This document shows positions 2,679 to 54,926 of a stretch of 64,000 nt of DNA, in pieces (the stretch's first letter is position 1; each line of letters starts with the position of its first letter). This stretch comes from a virus: positions 23,517 to 87,516 of IMG/VR virus record IMGVR_UViG_3300046791_000470. One strand, given 5' to 3'. The notes under the pieces are model-generated. The model made no database searches and was not told where the DNA came from. It saw only the letters and a list, made by a program, of their open reading frames with translations. Both the position numbers and the translations under genes were made by a program.

Positions 2679-3905
2679 CTAGGTGACGGGCCGGACGATG
2701 GCCGTGGCGCCGGTGATGTACCGCGTGGTGGCCGCGGCGCCGGTGGTGGTGAGCGAGATCCAGACCTTCTCGCCGGCCAGAACCTTGACCGGGATCTCGA
2801 GGGTCGTGAAGACGGGCGTCCACACCTGATCGCCGGCGCTGGCCGCCGAGGCGGCCGGATCGCTGAGCGTGTTCGTGCTGTTCGTGCCGGAGATGAGGGT
2901 GGCGACGAACTGCGCCGCGGCGAGGCCCTGCGCCACCTCGAGCACCACGCCCTCGAGCACCTCGCCGGGATGCACCTTGAGCGGGATCAGGAGCGGCGCG
3001 GCGGCCACGGTGTTGGCGTGCCAGCGACACGGCCCGGCGTCCGAGTGCCCGGCGAGGGTCCACGCGGCGCCGCTGTCGATCATGTCGAACGGCTGCGTGG
3101 TGCGGGTCTCCGTCGCGAACAGCGTCCCGTAGACGGTCCAGCGCCACGTCGCGCCGAAGACGTACGACACGCGGCCGACGACGCGCGGGTAGGTCCCAGC
3201 GGTGAGCGACGGCTGGCCGGAGTCGTCCACGAACACGGCGTCCCCGATCGTCGGCGTCCCCGCGCCCGCGATCGGCGCGATCCCGAACACGCGGACGATC
3301 GCCAGCGCGCCGGCCGTGAGGACGCCCGGCTCCACGCCGTCGATGATCACGCCGAGCTGGCCGCGGACGGCATCCTCGGAGCCGGTGGCGGGGGTGATGA
3401 CCGGCACCTCGTGGAGCCCGCTGACCGTCGTCGTCATACCGCTGACCTTGACGATGGTTCCGGCCGCGAGGCCGCCGGGGGTCTCGGCGGTGATGAGCGG
3501 GCCGCCGCACGCCAGATCGTCGAGCGCCTTGATCATGTTGCGGTTCACCGCGAGCGCCCACCCCTTCACGGAGCTCGCCTCGGTGGTCTCGGACGCCGCG
3601 GGGATGCGCGCGTAGTCCAGCTCGCGGAGCACGCTGATCGCGCAGGTGTCGATCGCCTCGGAGCCGAGGCCGGCGTCCACCACGAGCCGGAGCTGGTAGG
3701 TGCCCTCCTTGAGCGGCGTGAACTGCGGGTTCTCGATCGTCGTGTTCGAGAGCGCGTCGGCGGCGCCCTCGGGCTGATCGACGATGCTCCACGCGTAGGA
3801 GACCTCGTCGCCCACGTCGTCGTTCGAGAGGAGCACGGGCGTGGCGGTCTGGACGTTCACGGCCGAGACGGAGACGGTGTTCACTTCGATTCTTGCTCTG
3901 GACAT
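2679..3905 (-). CDS. Tail-associated protein with PKD/Ig-like N-terminal domain
   Basis: 408 aa. Residues about 20-80 form a PKD/Ig-like domain (SYAWSIVDQPEGAADAL, then EGTYQLRLVVDAG). The central part has glycine-rich loops of the type G-L-A-A-G-T-I-V-K-V-S-G, and the C-terminal 150 residues are beta-rich (EVLEGVVLEVAQGLAAAQFVATLISG, a Thr/Ala-rich end). Such modular beta proteins at the end of tail operons usually decorate fibres or baseplates and bind cell-surface sugars. The receptor and attachment point are unknown. Confidence 0.55.
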   Translation of the reverse strand: MSRARIEVNTVSVSAVNVQTATPVLLSNDDVGDEVSYAWSIVDQPEGAADALSNTTIENPQFTPLKEGTYQLRLVVDAGLGSEAIDTCAISVLRELDYARIPAASETTEASSVKGWALAVNRNMIKALDDLACGGPLITAETPGGLAAGTIVKVSGMTTTVSGLHEVPVITPATGSEDAVRGQLGVIIDGVEPGVLTAGALAIVRVFGIAPIAGAGTPTIGDAVFVDDSGQPSLTAGTYPRVVGRVSYVFGATWRWTVYGTLFATETRTTQPFDMIDSGAAWTLAGHSDAGPCRWHANTVAAAPLLIPLKVHPGEVLEGVVLEVAQGLAAAQFVATLISGTNSTNTLSDPAASAASAGDQVWTPVFTTLEIPVKVLAGEKVWISLTTTGAAATTRYITGATAIVRPVT

Positions 3906-3950
3906 GCCCCGGAAATTACATGCTCGGGGCGCGCCGTGGGAGCCGAAGCG

Positions 3951-4274
3951 TCAGGACGCCGCGGTCGCCGCAGCTTCGTCGCGCCGCGGCCGGCGCACGT
4001 AGCCGTCCCCGAGCTTCGTCGCGTGATCGCGCGCGATCAGCCACGCGATGGCGTCTGCGACCTGGTGGCGCTTCGTCGGTCCGCTCTCCGCCTCCACCAG
4101 CCGGATCACCTGGATCTGCCGCTTGGGGATGGTCTCGTGGAGCTTCCCGAGGACGAGCGCCCGGAACCAGGACATCTCCTCGTCGGAGCGGACGGGTCGC
4201 GCGGCCTCGGCGGCGAGGCGCGCGGCTTGGGCCTTGAAGAATCGGGCGGCGGACGCGGCGGAGGTGTCGTGCAT
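3951..4274 (-). CDS. Small helical protein, paralogue of 4290-4604
   Basis: 107 aa, unknown family. It is clearly related to its upstream neighbour: both begin with DTSAASAARFF, share an acidic/aromatic helix (DEExxxxRxxVL), and share RHxVxxAIxWLxAR near the C terminus. The conserved end looks like a small helix-turn-helix or winged-helix fold, which is inference. The duplication includes about 35 bp upstream of the start. Confidence 0.6.
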   Translation of the reverse strand: MHDTSAASAARFFKAQAARLAAEAARPVRSDEEMSWFRALVLGKLHETIPKRQIQVIRLVEAESGPTKRHQVADAIAWLIARDHATKLGDGYVRRPRRDEAAATAAS

Positions 4275-4289
4275 CCGTCTAGCCTCGCT

Positions 4290-4604
4290 TTACCGGGCGC
4301 CGCCCGTCAAGACAGAACAGGCAGCAGCGAGCGTCTCGCGCACGAAGCCTGCGCCCCGCCTGGCGAGCTCGCCGCGAGCTGCGAGCCAGTCGATCGCGTT
4401 CATGACGTGGTGCCGAGGCGTCCCGGGCCGCTCTGCGCAGACGAGGCGGAGCACCTCGGAGCGCCGGCGGGGGACGGTCGGATCGAACATCGCGAGCACC
4501 CACAGGCGGTACTCGTTAACCTCGTCGTCGGTGCGGTTCCCGCGGGCAGCGAGGAGCCTGAAGAACCGGGCCGCGGAGGCCGCCGACGTGTCGCGCTGTG
4601 ACAT
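4290..4604 (-). CDS. Small helical protein, paralogue of 3951-4274
   Basis: 104 aa from ATG at 4604 (MSQRDTSAASAARFF). Its length and motif order match the downstream paralogue, except that it lacks five residues after the first helix. The shared core is R-L-V-C/E-A-E, then T-x-R-H-x-V, then A-I-x-W-L-x-A-R. It stands between fibre/lipoprotein genes and the PKD-like tail protein gene. No function is recognised. Confidence 0.6.
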   Translation of the reverse strand: MSQRDTSAASAARFFRLLAARGNRTDDEVNEYRLWVLAMFDPTVPRRRSEVLRLVCAERPGTPRHHVMNAIDWLAARGELARRGAGFVRETLAAACSVLTGGAR

Positions 4605-4662
4605 GAGCGCCCACTCTCGCCTTTGCGGGGACACCCGGTCAACGGCAGTAAGCGGCAGCCGG

Positions 4663-5266
4663 TCAGTGTCGGATGTCGACTTCGGCATTCATGGCGCGGT
4701 CACCAGGCTGCCAGTTGCCGTACACCCTGATCGAGTAGGCAGTACCGGACTGCACCGGCACCGAGAGCCCGCCCGCTTCGAGGGTGACGATTCCGCTGGG
4801 GTGCGTCGTGGACACCTGATCGCCGATGGACTCGTGGTAGCCACGCACGCCAACGTGCTGCTCGAGGAACGCGGAGACGGGGTTCGGAGGTGTGCTTGTC
4901 GACGAACACGCGGAACCCGACGATCGTGTCTCCGGCCTGCACGTGGAACGGGTACCGCACCGGGATCAGGCCGGTGCCGAACGTCCACGAGTTCCCGTCG
5001 AACACCGGGCCGTTCGCGTAGCCGGCACCAACGTGCCCTTCAGCCGCATCGATCTGGATCGAGATCGGCGCGGGCGGCGGGGGAGGAGGTGCCGGCTCAC
5101 AGCACCCGTCCGCCGTGACACCGGCCGATTCGCAGATGGCGGGGCATCCGTCGTCCGCGGCGGTCTGTGTTTGGGAGCTGGTGGCGGTCGCCGTATCGGC
5201 GACGCAGGCGCCGGCCAGCGCGAGGAGGATGGCTGCGAGGGTGAACTTGATCGGTGGGCTGAACAT
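4663..5266 (-). pseudogene. Lipoprotein gene interrupted by a +1 frameshift
   Basis: The first part reads MFSPPIKFTLAAILLALAGAC, a lipoprotein-type signal peptide with cysteine at residue 21, then a Cys/Pro-rich linker (CCEPAPPPPPP), then a beta domain (GPVFDGNSWTFGTGL, QAGDTIVGFRVFVDKHT). At about 4890 the frame breaks; the matching continuation (SAFLEQHVGVRGYHESIGD to GNWQPGDRAMNAEVDIRH) is one frame away and ends at 4663. The intact relative at 36351-36872 shows the same order: SWDGDVWS, VGDTLTEWAVFARR, then a Tyr-rich edge and a short C-terminal strand. The total of 604 nt is one base over a whole number of codons. Either an assembly error or true decay. Confidence 0.6.
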
Positions 5267-5280
5267 GCGGTGCGCATGTT
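5262..5280. promoter_or_regulatory. Dyad at the start codon of the lipoprotein gene
   Basis: AACATGCG and its complement CGCATGTT flank a GTG centre and overlap the ATG at 5266. It could be an operator or a translation-blocking hairpin. It shares the CGCATG core with the class A operators but lies at the start codon rather than between -35 and -10. Confidence 0.3.
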
Positions 5281-5313
5281 GACCCAGCGCCACGCGTGAT
5301 CGCCAGCCCAAGA

Positions 5314-5907
5314 TCAGAAGGCGGCGGCGCCGAACGTGAGCGAGCCGCTCGCCCAGATCATCGCGTCCTCGAGCGCCGGATCGGTGTCGTTCACCGTCCC
5401 GGTGTTCGTGATCATTCGCGAGATGATCCGGCCCTGGAGAGCCAGGGAGCCGAGCGGCGCGCTGATCGGCGGCGAAGCTGCGGCGAGCCGAGCTTGAACC
5501 AGCGCGTCCACCGTCACGAGCTGGCTGCCCATCCCGGCAGCCGCCTGGAGGCCGAGGCTCACCCGGTCGAGGTAGTCGTGGCCGTGGTTGTGCGCTGCGT
5601 GCAGCAGCACGGTGCCGCCGTTGGTCTCATCCGCGCTGACCGCGTAGAACGAGGCGGCACCGCGGAGCCCGAGCTGGCCAAGACCGATCTGGACGCCGGC
5701 CGGTGCATCGAGAGCCAGCGGTGTGATGATCGGAGAGCCGGCGTTCCACTGCACGCGCCAGGTGCCCGTGAAGTGAGCCGGGCCAGCGGCGTGGGGCGAC
5801 ACGACCGGCGATTGGACGATCGTGTCGGTGTCGTCGGTGACGCAGGCACCAGCGAGCGTCAGAAGGAGAAGGAGGGCCGCGGCGGGGATTTTCTGGTCGG
5901 TGGTCAT
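5314..5907 (-). CDS. Lipoprotein carrying a copy of the tail-fibre C-terminal domain
   Basis: 197 aa. Residues 1-22 are a lipoprotein-type signal peptide (ALLLLLTLAGAC, Cys 22), followed by a 25-residue linker. Residues 49-197 align end to end with residues 250-394 of the adjacent fibre protein (5961-7145): both contain WRVQWNAG, LALDAPAG, LRGAxSFY, VTxVDA, LQGRIISR, TNTG and LEDA. In a tail fibre the C-terminal domain is normally the receptor-binding tip. A membrane-anchored copy made by the infected cell could occupy the receptor and block superinfection, as T5 Llp does for FhuA by a different fold. An AT-rich stretch upstream (5908-5945) may hold its own promoter. Homology is seen; the exclusion role is inferred. 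Confidence 0.7.
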   Translation of the reverse strand: MTTDQKIPAAALLLLLTLAGACVTDDTDTIVQSPVVSPHAAGPAHFTGTWRVQWNAGSPIITPLALDAPAGVQIGLGQLGLRGAASFYAVSADETNGGTVLLHAAHNHGHDYLDRVSLGLQAAAGMGSQLVTVDALVQARLAAASPPISAPLGSLALQGRIISRMITNTGTVNDTDPALEDAMIWASGSLTFGAAAF

Positions 5908-5960
5908 GTGCGTGTATTTCTAATCCACGCAAAACCAGATGGCTAGCCCTGCATGTATTC

Positions 5961-7145
5961 TTACGCCAGGTAAGATACCGTAGCGACTCCCTGAACGATT
6001 GCGTCCTCAAGCGAGGTGTCGGTGTTGTCCGAGGCGCCGGTGTTGGTCAGGTAGCGCGAGATGATCCGGCCCTGGAGAACCTTGGTTCCGATTCCCACGT
6101 CGATCGGCGGGGTTGCGGCTGCCAGCGCCGTCTGGAGGCTCGCATCGACCGTCGTCACCGGCACGCCAGTGCCAACCACACCCTGTAGGCCGATGGCGTA
6201 CGCGTTGGTGTTCGAGTGTCCGGTCTGGTGTGATGCGGTCAGGTTGCAGGTGCCGCGCGTGATCTCGCCGCCGACGACGTAGAACGAACCAGCTCCGCGC
6301 AGCGACAGCGGCCCGAGCGCGACCTGAAGGCCGGCCGGCGCGTCGAGCGCGAGCAGGGTGTGGATCGGAGCCCCGGCGTTCCACTGGACGCGCCACGAGG
6401 CGCCCACGGGCAGCATGCCGCCATGGCCGAGCAGCGGGCGGCGGTCCACGAGCGCGTCCGTGTCGATCGTGACCACGCTCGGCGCGACGTTGATCCGTCC
6501 GATCTTGACGTAGCCGGAGGTAGTCGACGGCTCGACCTCGGCGCCAGTAGCCGCCTCCGCGCCGATCTTGTAGCTGAGCCCCACCGTCGAGGCGCTCGGG
6601 CTGGAGACGAAGCCGGTCCGGCCGTCGAGGCTGAACGCGAGCGTCTTGTAGAACATGTGGTCCAGGAAGGACTTCGTGGCCGTGTCGAGCTGTCGACGCG
6701 TCACCAGGTTCTCGAGCCGCCGGTCCACCTTGACCTCGATGATGTCGATGCGCGACAGGCCGGGGCCGGGCGCCGTCGGGACCGTGAAGATCGCAGGCGC
6801 GTTGAGGTAGACCGGCTTGAAGCTCGACCGATCGTCAACGCCCTCGAGGTCCGTCGCGCCGATGTCGAACGGCAGATCGAGCGCGTCGTAGATGAAGCCG
6901 AAGCCCGCACTGACCTGCACGGACATCGCGATCGGGCTCGCGGGGACGACGCGCATCCCGTCGCCGATGAAGCCGCTGTGCGAGGTGATCGCGGAGGTGC
7001 CTCCACCGGCGACACCGGAGCCGCCGACGAGCGCGCGCAGCACGTCGCGGAGCGTCCGGTCGAGCTGCGACTCGAGGCGGTTGAAGTCGCTGGAAAGGGG
7101 CCGCTCGCGCAGGCCGAGATTGACGCGGTCAAATGGATTGTTCAC
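5961..7145 (-). CDS. Tail fibre protein, likely receptor-binding C-terminal domain
   Basis: 394 aa. The N terminus (NPFDRVNLGLRERPLSSDFN) is polar and helical, typical of a baseplate-docking segment; residues about 45-110 are Gly/Ser-rich with aromatic beta strands (VSAGFGFIYDA). Residues 250-394 are a compact beta domain that is also found as a separate lipoprotein next door. The gene follows the baseplate-J and baseplate I-like genes directly, the usual place for the adsorption fibre. No chaperone gene is obvious. The receptor is unknown. Confidence 0.7.
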   Translation of the reverse strand: MNNPFDRVNLGLRERPLSSDFNRLESQLDRTLRDVLRALVGGSGVAGGGTSAITSHSGFIGDGMRVVPASPIAMSVQVSAGFGFIYDALDLPFDIGATDLEGVDDRSSFKPVYLNAPAIFTVPTAPGPGLSRIDIIEVKVDRRLENLVTRRQLDTATKSFLDHMFYKTLAFSLDGRTGFVSSPSASTVGLSYKIGAEAATGAEVEPSTTSGYVKIGRINVAPSVVTIDTDALVDRRPLLGHGGMLPVGASWRVQWNAGAPIHTLLALDAPAGLQVALGPLSLRGAGSFYVVGGEITRGTCNLTASHQTGHSNTNAYAIGLQGVVGTGVPVTTVDASLQTALAAATPPIDVGIGTKVLQGRIISRYLTNTGASDNTDTSLEDAIVQGVATVSYLA

Positions 7146-8299: not shown

Positions 8300-9496
8300 T
8301 CACTGGATCAGCGAGGCGGCCTGGCTCTGAAGGGTCGCCTGCGAGTCGAACGTGATGTTGGAGAGCGCGGTGCGGAGCACCTGGTACTTCGAGACCGGGA
8401 TGATCGGGCCGACGGGCGAGGCCACCTCGTCGCCGAACGTCTCGAGGCCGGGCACGCCGCGCAGCAGCGTCGTGATCGCCGCCGGGTCGAACGTCGCGCC
8501 GGGCGCCAGCTCGTTGATGTGCTGCACCACCAGCACCCGCACGTAGAGCGCGAGCGCGTCGGTGTTGCTCACGTCGGCGGTGAACCGCAGCCGGAGCACG
8601 ACCTGGATCATCCGCACCGCCGCCACGACGACGGTCACCGGGATCCCATACGCCCGGTACTCGATGAGGGCGTTCTTCACGACGTGCGCGAGCGCCTGGC
8701 TCTGCGTCTCGTACGCCGGCACCTCGATCCCCTGCTTGACCAGCGCGTCCGTGAAGGCGTCCGCGATCACAAGCGTGACCGAGCGCGTCGGGTAGCCGTA
8801 CGACTGCAACCCCTCGAACGCGAGCACGCGCTGCACGCCGGGGACCGCGAGCGCGCCGGTCTCGATCGCGCCCTTGGTCCCGCGGCGCAGCGAGGCCCAG
8901 AAGCGCCGCCCGCGCGCCTTGTAGTCGTCGTCGCTCTCGACGTTCGCGGCGCCGCTCGAGGCTTCAGCGTTCGTCACCGTGAGCCCGACCGGCGACAGCT
9001 CGATGGAGGTCGTGATGCTCTTGATCGCCCCCGGCCCGATCGCCTGATCGATCCCCGCGAGCAGCGAGCGCGCGAGCACCTGAACCGGCCCGACGGAGGC
9101 CGCCGGATAGGTCGTGGTGACGAGCGTCGTGAACTCGCGCCCGTCCGAGGTCGCCACGCGCGTCCCCGAGGGGATCGAGAACGCCACGCTGGGGGCCGGG
9201 CTGCACGAGAACTGGACGTAGACGAACGCCGGCGCGGCCGGCTTGCGGGTGAGTCCCCACCGATCGGACATCCACTTGTCGAGCTTCGCGCCGCGCGCCG
9301 AGTCGAGCCAGAAGCCCTCCTCCACGTCGGCGAGCTGGCCGATCACTTCCTCGCCGACGACGGCGGCGCCGGCGGCCATGATGTTCGCGTCGGTGCCGTC
9401 GCGATCCACGGCGTTGACGGTCAGACGCTCCGATCGGCTCACCGCCTCGTCACGGAACGTGCGGTGGAAGTCGGCGAACTTCGGGAAGTCGGGCAC
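8300..9496 (-). CDS. Baseplate J-like wedge protein
   Basis: 398 aa. It carries the baseplate-J signature: an N-terminal helical segment, the strand-turn IPSGTRVATSDGREFTT, then VESDDDYKARGRRFWASLRRGTKGAI-type sequence (residues about 200-225) leading into VPGVQRVLAFE. Family members (P2 gpJ, T4 gp6) form the wedge ring of the contractile-tail baseplate. It sits directly downstream of the gp25-like gene, as expected. Confident family call. Confidence 0.92.
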   Translation of the reverse strand: MPDFPKFADFHRTFRDEAVSRSERLTVNAVDRDGTDANIMAAGAAVVGEEVIGQLADVEEGFWLDSARGAKLDKWMSDRWGLTRKPAAPAFVYVQFSCSPAPSVAFSIPSGTRVATSDGREFTTLVTTTYPAASVGPVQVLARSLLAGIDQAIGPGAIKSITTSIELSPVGLTVTNAEASSGAANVESDDDYKARGRRFWASLRRGTKGAIETGALAVPGVQRVLAFEGLQSYGYPTRSVTLVIADAFTDALVKQGIEVPAYETQSQALAHVVKNALIEYRAYGIPVTVVVAAVRMIQVVLRLRFTADVSNTDALALYVRVLVVQHINELAPGATFDPAAITTLLRGVPGLETFGDEVASPVGPIIPVSKYQVLRTALSNITFDSQATLQSQAASLIQ

Positions 9497-31046: not shown

Positions 31047-31583
31047 TCAGATCGGGTGGTCGTAGGTCAGCCGCACGGCGCCGATGCAGAGCCCGGCCTG
31101 GTCCGCGGCGAGCTCGAACCAGTGCACGGCGCCGCCCTCGACGATCGTGTCCACCAGATCGAACGGCACGTCGTGCCACAGGTCCGGCACGTTGAAGACC
31201 GAGACCGGAGCCAGTGGACCGGGCACGCTGCCGCCGTTCGGGGCGATGCTGACCGACCGGATCGCCAGATCGGCCGAGCGGTTGCCGGCCATCGCGATCG
31301 TCATCGACAGCATCCGATCGCCCTCGACGAGGGTTGGCAGGACGGCGAACCGGCCGGCGCCGTAGCTCAGCATGCAGCCGTCGGAGGTGCCCGTGAAGCC
31401 GTTGAAATCCGGCGTCCAGTTGGTGTGCACGACACCACCGATCGCGCTGATCACCTCGGTGGCCGGCGGTTTGGGCGCGGGCGGCGGCGCGACGGCCTGA
31501 TCCGGCGGCGCGGCGGTGGCGCTCGGCGTGGCCGTGCAGGCGGGGGCGAGGAGGAGGGCGAGGAACAGAAGGGAGGCGCGCAT
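31047..31583 (-). CDS. Phage lipoprotein
   Basis: 178 aa. The signal peptide MRASLLFLALLLAPAC ends in cysteine 16; the next 30 residues are Pro/Ala-rich, and the rest is a beta domain (GVVHTNWTPDFNGFTGTSDG, LSMTIAMAGNRSADLAI, WFELAADQAGLCIGAVRLTYD) with two cysteines. It sits downstream of the portal and a 59-codon gene. It is similar in plan, not in clear sequence, to the lipoprotein at 36351. The likely site is the outer face of the membrane. Function unknown. Confidence 0.6.
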   Translation of the reverse strand: MRASLLFLALLLAPACTATPSATAAPPDQAVAPPPAPKPPATEVISAIGGVVHTNWTPDFNGFTGTSDGCMLSYGAGRFAVLPTLVEGDRMLSMTIAMAGNRSADLAIRSVSIAPNGGSVPGPLAPVSVFNVPDLWHDVPFDLVDTIVEGGAVHWFELAADQAGLCIGAVRLTYDHPI

Positions 31584-36350: not shown

Positions 36351-36872
36351 ATGTTCCGACTCCTGAGCGCGCTCGTCGTCCTCCTCGCCGCCTGCAATCA
36401 GCCCGATCTCCACTCGGAGCCGAGCGCGCTCATCGCCCCGGCGCCCCCGCCCGCCGGCACCCTCACGATCCTACCGATCAGCCCGGCGGCTGCGATCACT
36501 ACGGCCTTCGGTCCCTCGTGGGACGGCGATGTCTGGTCCATCACCAAGAGCGGCGACGCGCTCCGATACCCGGTGCCGGTGATCGTCGGCGACACCCTCA
36601 CGGAGTGGGCCGTGTTCGCGCGCCGATCCACGGTGGGCGCCGTCCTGTCGGCGCAGCTACAGGTGTTCGACGCGGTGGACCTGCGTCACTACGACGTTGG
36701 GCCGATGGTCACGAACGGCGATCCGGTCACCGGCTACTTCCCGCTCGAGACCGCGATCCCGCCGGTGTTCGTGCACGAGGACTTCTCGGTCTCGGTGCTC
36801 GTGATCGGCGAGGGCACGCCCGGCGACATCGTGGGGACCGCGAACGTTTACGTGATGCGGCAGTGGCAGTGA
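36351..36872 (+). CDS. Phage lipoprotein, intact relative of 4663-5266
   Basis: 173 aa. MFRLLSALVVLLAAC is a compact lipoprotein signal peptide (Cys 15), followed by a Pro-rich linker and a beta domain: SWDGDVWSITKSGDALRYPV, VGDTLTEWAVFARR, LSAQLQVFDAVDLRHYDVGP, SVSVLVIGEG, ending ANVYVMRQWQ. It is on the opposite strand to the late operon and alone between two minus-strand blocks, like a moron gene. It matches the plan of the frameshifted lipoprotein at 4663. Possible surface or exclusion role; not proven. Confidence 0.65.
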   Translation: MFRLLSALVVLLAACNQPDLHSEPSALIAPAPPPAGTLTILPISPAAAITTAFGPSWDGDVWSITKSGDALRYPVPVIVGDTLTEWAVFARRSTVGAVLSAQLQVFDAVDLRHYDVGPMVTNGDPVTGYFPLETAIPPVFVHEDFSVSVLVIGEGTPGDIVGTANVYVMRQWQ

Positions 36873-52853: not shown

Positions 52854-53705
52854 TCAGTTCGCGATCGCCACGGCGGCCGAGGCGACGTGCGCCCCGATCG
52901 CGACGTTCACATACCACGTGGTCGGCCCAACCCCGCTCTCCGTGAGGGCCACGGTGAAGTCGCCGGCCTCGCCGGAGACCAGGTCGAAAACCTTGTTGGC
53001 CGTGATGGTTGCGATGGTAACGCCGTCACCGATCCCGGTTCCGCCGTTCGGTGCAGTGGCCGTAGGGGCGCCCGCTGCCACGTCGCTCACCCACACCCGG
53101 ACGTGCGCCTTCGCGGCGAGGTCCCCGCCGGCGATGTTCTTGAGCTGGACCGTCGAGGTGCGCGTGGTGCCGATCTGCGCGTCGACGGAGATGGTCGGGG
53201 TCCCTGGGATCGCGGCCACGACGGTGGCGGCGAGCTTCGCGGCGGTCACGTTCGCGTCCAGGATCTTGGCGGTGGTCACCGCATCCGCGGCCAGCTTCGC
53301 ATCCGTCACTGCGAGGGCGGCGAGCTTTCCGGTCGTGACGTTGAGATCGAGGATCTTCGCGGTGATCACCGCGTTGGCCGCAAGCTGGGCGTCCGTCACC
53401 GAGAGCAGCGCCAGCTTTGCGGTGGTGACGGCCAGCGCCGCGAGCTTGCCCGTGGTGACCGCCAAGTCTTCGATGTCCGCGGTGGCGACGCCGCCGGTCG
53501 GCCCCTCGGTGCCGCTGAACACCGGCTCCCACTCCGTGGGCTCGGTGCCGTGCTTGATCATCGGGTAGGCGCGCTCGGTGTCGGCGTCGACCCAGATCAG
53601 GAACGATCCAGGCAAGCCGGGGCGCCCTGCTCCCTCCACCCGTGGATCGTTGTAGGTGACGACAAAGTCGCGGAGGAGAGCGTCGGTCTGCCGGATGTGC
53701 GCCAT
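52854..53705 (-). CDS. Tail fibre protein with decapeptide repeats
   Basis: 283 aa. The N-terminal 65 residues (DFVVTYNDPRVEGAGRPGLP, WVDADTERAYPMIKHG) match the N terminus of the fibre at 54072. Residues 81-160 are eight decapeptide repeats of the type LAVTTGKLAA, which form trimeric shafts. The C terminus is a beta domain (PTISVDAQIGTTRTSTVQLK). It lies outside the late operon, next to early coiled-coil genes. A fibre or side fibre is likely; the partner is unknown. Confidence 0.65.
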   Translation of the reverse strand: MAHIRQTDALLRDFVVTYNDPRVEGAGRPGLPGSFLIWVDADTERAYPMIKHGTEPTEWEPVFSGTEGPTGGVATADIEDLAVTTGKLAALAVTTAKLALLSVTDAQLAANAVITAKILDLNVTTGKLAALAVTDAKLAADAVTTAKILDANVTAAKLAATVVAAIPGTPTISVDAQIGTTRTSTVQLKNIAGGDLAAKAHVRVWVSDVAAGAPTATAPNGGTGIGDGVTIATITANKVFDLVSGEAGDFTVALTESGVGPTTWYVNVAIGAHVASAAVAIAN

Positions 53706-54071: not shown

Positions 54072-54926
54072 CTACAGGGTCCACGCCATTCCGAAGGAGC
54101 CCCGCCGCACGGTGATCGTCGCCGACGATCCGGTCTCGATCCTCGCCTGCAGGGTCATCCGGCCGTTGGCGTTGGGGACGATGATGCCCTCGATCGCGAA
54201 CACGTAGTCCAGCCCAGCCGTGTCCACGCTGGACGCCACTGCCGGCCCCTGGCTTGTAGTGATCGGCGTGGCAAACATGACCGTCGGCCCGGCGACGATC
54301 TGGCCGATCATCGTCGCCGAGGCGCCGAACACCGAGTAGGTCGGAGTGACCACGGTGAGCCCCGGGCCGATGTTGGCGTTCGTCGATCGGACGAGCGTAA
54401 CGAAACGGAAGTAGTAGCTGCGGTCGGCGAGGAGATCGAACCCGACGGTTGGCGACCCGGACACCCCCACAGCAACGTCGGCGTAGCTCGTCGACATGAA
54501 CGGTGAGTCTGCCGTCTTCGCGACCACCTGCAGGCCGAGCACGCCTCGCGCCTGCGTCGAGGTCAGCGCGGTCACCGGCCCGGTGGCGTCGGTCGCGTTG
54601 CCGAGCAACCTCGGCCCCGCGATCGGCAGGAGCTGGGTGATGGGCAGGAACCCACCGACGAAGCCGCCTGGCTCCGGCGGCTCTGCCCATCGCAGGTCCG
54701 CCCTGAGGAACTCATCCTCGTTTCCCGTCGGCGGCGGAATGAACGCCACCCAGTCGTTCGGGCCGTCGCCCTGCTTGGCCATCAGCACCGCGGCGCCGTC
54801 GCCGTTGACGTAGACGAGCATCGCTCCGCGCTGCGCTGCGCGTCCCTGCGTCGGGATGCGCGGATCGTTGTACGTCGTGACCATGACCGGCGTGGGAGCG
54901 TCCGACTGCGGGAAGATTGACGGCAT
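54072..54926 (-). CDS. Tail fibre protein, N-terminal paralogue of 52854-53705
   Basis: 284 aa. The first 65 residues (VTTYNDPRIPTQGRAAQRGA, LVYVNGDGAAVLMAKQGDGP) align with the other fibre; then a Pro-rich hinge and a beta-rich C terminus with long strands (STSYADVAVGVSGSPTVGFD, MTLQARIETGSSATITVRR). Lacks the decapeptide shaft. Exchange of C-terminal domains on a common base is typical of fibres. Confidence 0.6.
   Translation of the reverse strand: MPSIFPQSDAPTPVMVTTYNDPRIPTQGRAAQRGAMLVYVNGDGAAVLMAKQGDGPNDWVAFIPPPTGNEDEFLRADLRWAEPPEPGGFVGGFLPITQLLPIAGPRLLGNATDATGPVTALTSTQARGVLGLQVVAKTADSPFMSTSYADVAVGVSGSPTVGFDLLADRSYYFRFVTLVRSTNANIGPGLTVVTPTYSVFGASATMIGQIVAGPTVMFATPITTSQGPAVASSVDTAGLDYVFAIEGIIVPNANGRMTLQARIETGSSATITVRRGSFGMAWTL

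Follow-up and report, generated by a model that had tools for sequence, protein, structure and literature searches.

A predicted phage lipoprotein composed of a lipobox signal and the terminal domain of the neighbouring putative fibre, and its possible part in receptor interference

Introduction

Why would a phage carry the end of one of its own fibres a second time, placed behind a lipoprotein signal? The question is raised by a 64,000-nucleotide stretch of viral DNA (the window; bases 23,517-87,516 of the 87,516-base record IMGVR_UViG_3300046791_000470, GC 71%), in which the predicted lipoprotein gene lip1 adjoins a putative fibre gene. Genes for exclusion lipoproteins adjoin receptor-binding genes in many phages (PMC9586334). 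One known product of this kind, Llp of T5, works from the periplasm by an allosteric effect on FhuA; such lipoproteins also occur where the phage receptor has no known allostery, and for these the blocking mechanism is stated to be open (PMC9586334). A simple answer to receptor blocking of the non-allosteric kind, namely competition for the same site, is suggested by a lipoprotein that carries the tip of the phage's own fibre.

The lip1 gene and the end of the fibre

The relevant genes lie on the minus strand in the order baseplate J protein (8300-9496; Pfam E 7.8e-21, PHROG baseplate wedge E 1.7e-41), second baseplate protein, fibre, lip1, lip2, two small open reading frames and a PKD-domain protein. 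The 394-aa product of 5961-7145 is taken as a putative baseplate-proximal fibre (tail protein) from its place after the two baseplate genes and from its orthologues in three relatives (G305, G316 and G317, described below). Between this gene and that of the PKD protein (2679-3905), which appears to be a second fibre, an insert at 3906-5960 holds lip1 (5314-5907), lip2 (4663-5266) and the small frames at 4290-4604 and 3951-4274, and it does not occur in G305 or G317. The two small minus-strand frames resemble each other by eye, and so two alike proteins of about 105 aa are encoded beside the lipoprotein genes.

A sequence-only reading of this DNA had described lip1 as a 197-aa lipoprotein consisting of a signal and the C-terminal domain, of about 145 aa, of the adjacent fibre, and alignments together with PROSITE PS00013 bear this out. 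The signal and lipobox (MTTDQKIPAAALLLLLTLAGA/C22, at 5842-5907, lipobox LAGAC) fit the PS00013 pattern and have a hydrophobic core of mean 2.66. The tip domain inside lip1 extends over 150 aa (5317-5766) and its template in the fibre, the C-terminal domain, is encoded at 5964-6407. Lip1 and the fibre C-terminus share 47% of residues in a BLASTP alignment of 177 aa (pair E 2e-50), by BLASTN the two DNAs are 67% identical over 403 nt, and within the domain of about 145 aa the identity is 51-52%. The Smith-Waterman Z of lip1 against the fibre is 58, a score reached by none of 300 shuffles, and the blocks WRVQWNAG, LALDAPAG and LQGRIISR said to be common to both proteins were all found. The linker of lip1 shows a marginal homology to the fibre stretch that precedes the tip (p 0.02).

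Under a strict lipobox filter lip1 was the sole pass among the 121 called genes of the window's phage; these counts cover called genes, and lip2 and a further lipoprotein, protein B, fit the rule but are uncalled or called with a wrong start. Lip1 has no family match in Pfam, PHROG, NCBIfam or PADLOC. Similarly, 50,697 phage records gave no tblastn match to the fibre, the domain of lip1 or protein B, and single-query scans of viral or genome contigs with lip1, the fibre, a two-tip alignment or the baseplate J protein found none either. When 289 genomes, all from the phylum of one match, were searched by HMM, the matches were at chance level only; the route to that phylum was a widespread gene, and the host may belong elsewhere.

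Recurrence in related phages

Relatives were reached by a terminase scan and then by scans with alignments of orthologues, and the comparison set comprises four phages with this fibre: that of the window, G305, G316 and G317. The terminase scan gave G305 (IMGVR_UViG_3300046740_000431, 92,026 bases), a collinear relative whose fibre is 44-47% identical to that of the window and is directly followed, after a 6-nt gap, by the PKD protein; none of the four insert genes stands in that gap, and none of 130 called genes passes the strict lipobox filter. G317 (IMGVR_UViG_3300032397_000794), a 29-kb fragment found by a scan with five tips, has the fibre and then, after 10 nt, the PKD protein, with no lipoprotein between. 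Other contigs reached through the terminase hold few lipobox genes, and those checked, from G313, match no fibre.

A search for the pair of fibre tip and lipoprotein in other phages had been proposed, and the pair was found in a second, divergent phage, G316 (IMGVR_UViG_3300005365_000022, 88,170 bases; baseplate scan). Here the orthologous fibre gene (86016-87194, minus strand) is convergent with the gene of a 338-aa lipoprotein (MKMRNLYRVLLFCSLSWFIG/C; 85013-86029, plus strand), the two meeting tail-to-tail with a 14-nt overlap. The same tip domain makes up the C-terminal half of this lipoprotein (HMM E 7e-46; Smith-Waterman Z 35 against the fibre tip of its own phage), a different domain stands ahead of the tip, and the strict filter passes this protein alone among 113 called genes. 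On the other side of that fibre lies a plus-strand gene for a protein that is PAS-domain-like by eye (87282-87701).

A tip-bearing lipoprotein is found in two of the four phages with this fibre, both times in the gap between the fibre and PKD genes. That the other two have the fibre and an empty gap marks the lip1 region as an accessory cassette. Overall the pairing of lip1 with the fibre is, from these comparisons, a real and conserved architecture, undescribed as far as the searches reached, and one for which a function is plausible.

Age and origin of the pair

Synonymous divergence between lip1 and the fibre tip (dS 0.79) equals that obtained in simulations that draw codons at random according to the usage of the phage (median 0.81), dN is about 0.43 and roughly half of the residues are kept. 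Saturated synonymous sites with a retained protein indicate that the copy is old and has been kept as a protein, and on this codon evidence lip1 is an old, divergent paralogue of the fibre tip. The word "copy" as used in the sequence-only reading therefore holds in the sense of homology and not in that of a recent duplicate, which the codon simulation rules out. The codon evidence also bears on the idea that lip1 is a by-product of domain shuffling with no selected function. The broken frame of the neighbouring lip2 would fit such an idea, but the conservation of the protein in the face of saturated synonymous sites and the recurrence of the pair in a second phage speak against it, and we consider it very improbable.

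As to how the pair came about, the signal-coding DNA of lip1 resembles that of lip2 (none of 1,000 codon shuffles reaches the score), and lip1 may thus have arisen when a signal of the lip2 type was joined to the end of a fibre. Tip identities are 51% between lip1 and its own fibre, 50% between lip1 and the G316 fibre, and 45% both between lip1 and the G316 lipoprotein and within the G316 pair. In the tip tree a grouping by phage (AU p 0.0185) and a grouping of fibres against lipoproteins (AU p 0.013) are both disfavoured. The former value gives no support to the proposal of a lipoprotein changing in step with the fibre of its phage, and lip1, being no nearer to its own fibre tip than to that of G316, shows no sign of doing so. 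The tree is compatible with a single ancient origin with losses and with two separate origins.

The tip domain and the second fibre

An AlphaFold2 model built on six aligned tips is mostly beta, with a mean pLDDT of 76 and a pTM of 0.74, that from two sequences being poor (pLDDT 35). Foldseek gave no significant match of the model in the PDB, and against viral structures weak matches, among them some tail-fibre proteins of phages (E 1.5e-2, prob 0.84, low TM-score). The fibre body of G317 weakly matches a family of virion structural proteins (E 2.5e-4). In five of six phage pairs the tip shows less conservation than the body, and within the fibre it is vertically inherited, at 32-53% identity between phages.

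The PKD fibre behaves otherwise, in that its N-terminus is kept and its end is exchanged (2679-3905 in the window; L113:13520-14971; G316 81538-83079; L142:6455-7675 in G317). The end of the G305 PKD protein is of a Gly-rich adhesin type (Pfam Gly_rich_2; PHROG tail fibre assembly, phrog_863) and that of G316 is Gly-rich by eye, while the window's phage and G317 carry other domains. Such outright swapping is what one would rather expect of a tip that binds a receptor. With the PKD-fibre end swapped and the copied tip vertical, the PKD protein becomes the better candidate for the main receptor binder, and arguably its tip, judged on these sequences, is a better candidate than the tip copied in lip1.

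If the copied tip does not contact a receptor it may be an oligomerisation or docking domain, in which case the anchored copy would interfere with the assembly or function of virions, trapping the fibres of incoming phages rather than masking a host structure. Conservation and vertical inheritance of the tip in the fibre suit a structural domain or one for trimerisation, and Ltp of the Streptococcus thermophilus phage TP-J34, a lipoprotein that binds the tape-measure protein of the incoming virion, gives such trapping a precedent (PMC3952083). However fibre assembly is cytoplasmic, where an exported lipoprotein would not meet fibres, and the C-terminal end of a fibre is usually distal, so that trapping of this kind seems unlikely.

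Receptor interference and the known systems

Lip1 is an accessory gene that sets the terminal domain of the phage's own fibre on a lipoprotein signal. It most likely acts by receptor interference, a reading in which we have evenly balanced confidence. The tip domain would be exported and held by its lipid in the outer membrane, presumably of a diderm host and displayed at the surface. There it would occupy or mask the structure contacted by the fibre tip, probably by binding the receptor in competition with virions. Virions that arrive later, of this phage or its relatives, would then be unable to bind the infected cell or, as an alternative outcome, new virions would escape trapping by the lysed envelope. 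Lip1 follows the fibre gene on one strand, a position that suits late expression and the protection of progeny; the lipoprotein gene of G316, on the opposite strand, would require separate transcription.

Several observations count against receptor interference: the vertical inheritance of the copied tip beside a swapped second-fibre tip, the lack of a significant PDB match, the lack of tracking of the own fibre, and the default orientation of lipoproteins, which is towards the periplasm. Outward-facing lipoproteins are described as possible (PMC9586334). Gene position gives a precedent, in that on the T5 map the exclusion lipoprotein gene neighbours that of the receptor-binding protein, from which it differs in strand, and the RTP map has the lipoprotein gene rtp45 beside a candidate receptor-binding gene, probably a like case. 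Direct blocking by a receptor-binding protein also has a precedent, since purified pb5, the receptor-binding protein of T5, alone blocks T5 infection (PMC9586334).

Lipoproteins of the Llp/Cor type (T5 and T1/phi80-type phages) share with lip1 their encoding by a phage, a lipobox signal and a gene next to a receptor-binding gene, the neighbour of lip1 being a putative fibre. Unlike lip1, a 197-aa paralogue of a fibre domain, Llp has a 77-aa precursor without similarity to pb5 (Z -0.2). Nor does the putative exclusion lipoprotein rtp45, whose gene like lip1 adjoins one for a candidate receptor-binding protein, clearly resemble rtp44 (Z 1.5, a score reached by 27 of 300 shuffles) or the terminal part of the J homologue. 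The earlier statement that T5 Llp is no copy of its neighbour was thus correct, and the same applies to rtp45. In the comparison, which took in Llp and rtp45, lip1 itself is similar neither to Llp (Z 0.2) nor to rtp45 (Z -0.7), and it falls in no PHROG family.

To our knowledge there is no phage example of receptor interference by a copy of a receptor-binding protein, and to this extent the suggestion that the principle would be new still stands. Across biology it does not, as Fv4 and other endogenous retroviral Env proteins are membrane-held copies of a receptor-binding protein that block entry by receptor interference (PMC9967133). Lip1, as a predicted membrane-held homologue of the end of a putative fibre, would resemble the Fv4 type if that fibre serves for attachment. 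Fv4, however, is host-encoded and animal, whereas lip1 is carried by the virus and is a single terminal domain on a predicted bacterial lipid anchor. Ltp is a surface-exposed phage lipoprotein engaged in superinfection exclusion, as lip1 may be; it differs in targeting the tape-measure protein and in having its gene in the lysogeny module (PMC3952083). In kind lip1 would then be a variant of the phage-encoded exclusion lipoproteins, and its mode, if confirmed, would match retroviral receptor interference. A lipoprotein signal followed by the terminal domain of a neighbouring fibre could serve as a sequence rule for finding such genes, and pairs of the lip1 type may give a handle on the receptors of uncultured phages.

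Further lipoprotein-like genes of the phage

Besides lip1 the phage has four lipoprotein-like open reading frames, namely lip2 and those of proteins A, B and C. Lip2 (lipobox LAGAC), A (minus strand, G000:C1:23088-23653; the gene starts left of the window, its 3' end lying at 1-137) and B (36351-36872, plus strand, with a lipobox) are mutual paralogues at E 1e-8 to 1e-21. A and B lie far apart in the genome, and one of them is on the opposite strand. The homology of lip2 to A and B runs across a frame break near 4879-4885, the two frames jointly matching both proteins, and the break may reflect either true decay or a C run that was misassembled. A proline at lipobox position -2 in A and C makes their lipidation less sure.

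Homology links the mature domain of protein C (31047-31583, minus strand) with the end domain of the G317 second fibre (phmmer 1.2e-9 against the single target; hhalign probability 88; Smith-Waterman Z 13.7, 0 of 500 shuffles), and this pair, one among 21 compared, is still significant after correction. This second case of a fibre-type domain in a lipoprotein-like protein speaks for receptor interference. Membership of the lip2, A and B family, or of the N-terminal domain of the G316 lipoprotein, in the same superfamily as the second-fibre tips is weakly suggested (Z about 0 to 5.5). Speculatively, and we think this doubtful, lip1 with its domain from the own fibre, C with one of a relative's second-fibre type and perhaps lip2, A and B would form a set of lipid-anchored tips, a repertoire of blockers against self and competitors. 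Such a repertoire, if true, would be the bacterial-virus form of retroviral receptor interference.

Several genes for lipoprotein-like proteins in one phage, with linkers rich in Pro and domains of beta type, would also suit a surface adhesin or conversion gene, where a glycan-binding beta domain of the fibre is reused on a cell-surface lipoprotein and alters how infected or lysogenic cells adhere to one another or to other matter, the blocking of phages not being its function. The accessory position of the lip1 region and the additional N-terminal domain of the G316 lipoprotein agree with this. It fits less well that two lipoprotein-like proteins match fibre terminal domains specifically and that the tip copy lies beside the fibre gene in both phages, and an adhesin is in our view a real but minor possibility. 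A role in lysis or at the envelope, as a late-region and spanin-like outer-membrane lipoprotein whose fibre domain would only bind wall or lipopolysaccharide, appears improbable. Lip1 is indeed on the strand of the late tail genes, with a gap of 53 nt, and the N-terminus of protein C has a weak, non-significant match to an Rz-spanin (E 0.25), but PHROG holds no match for lip1, in G316 the gene runs on the other strand, and relatives lack it.

Elsewhere in the window the minus strand encodes two more fibre-like proteins (52854-53705 and 54072-54926), which have an N-terminal TYNDPR motif in common.
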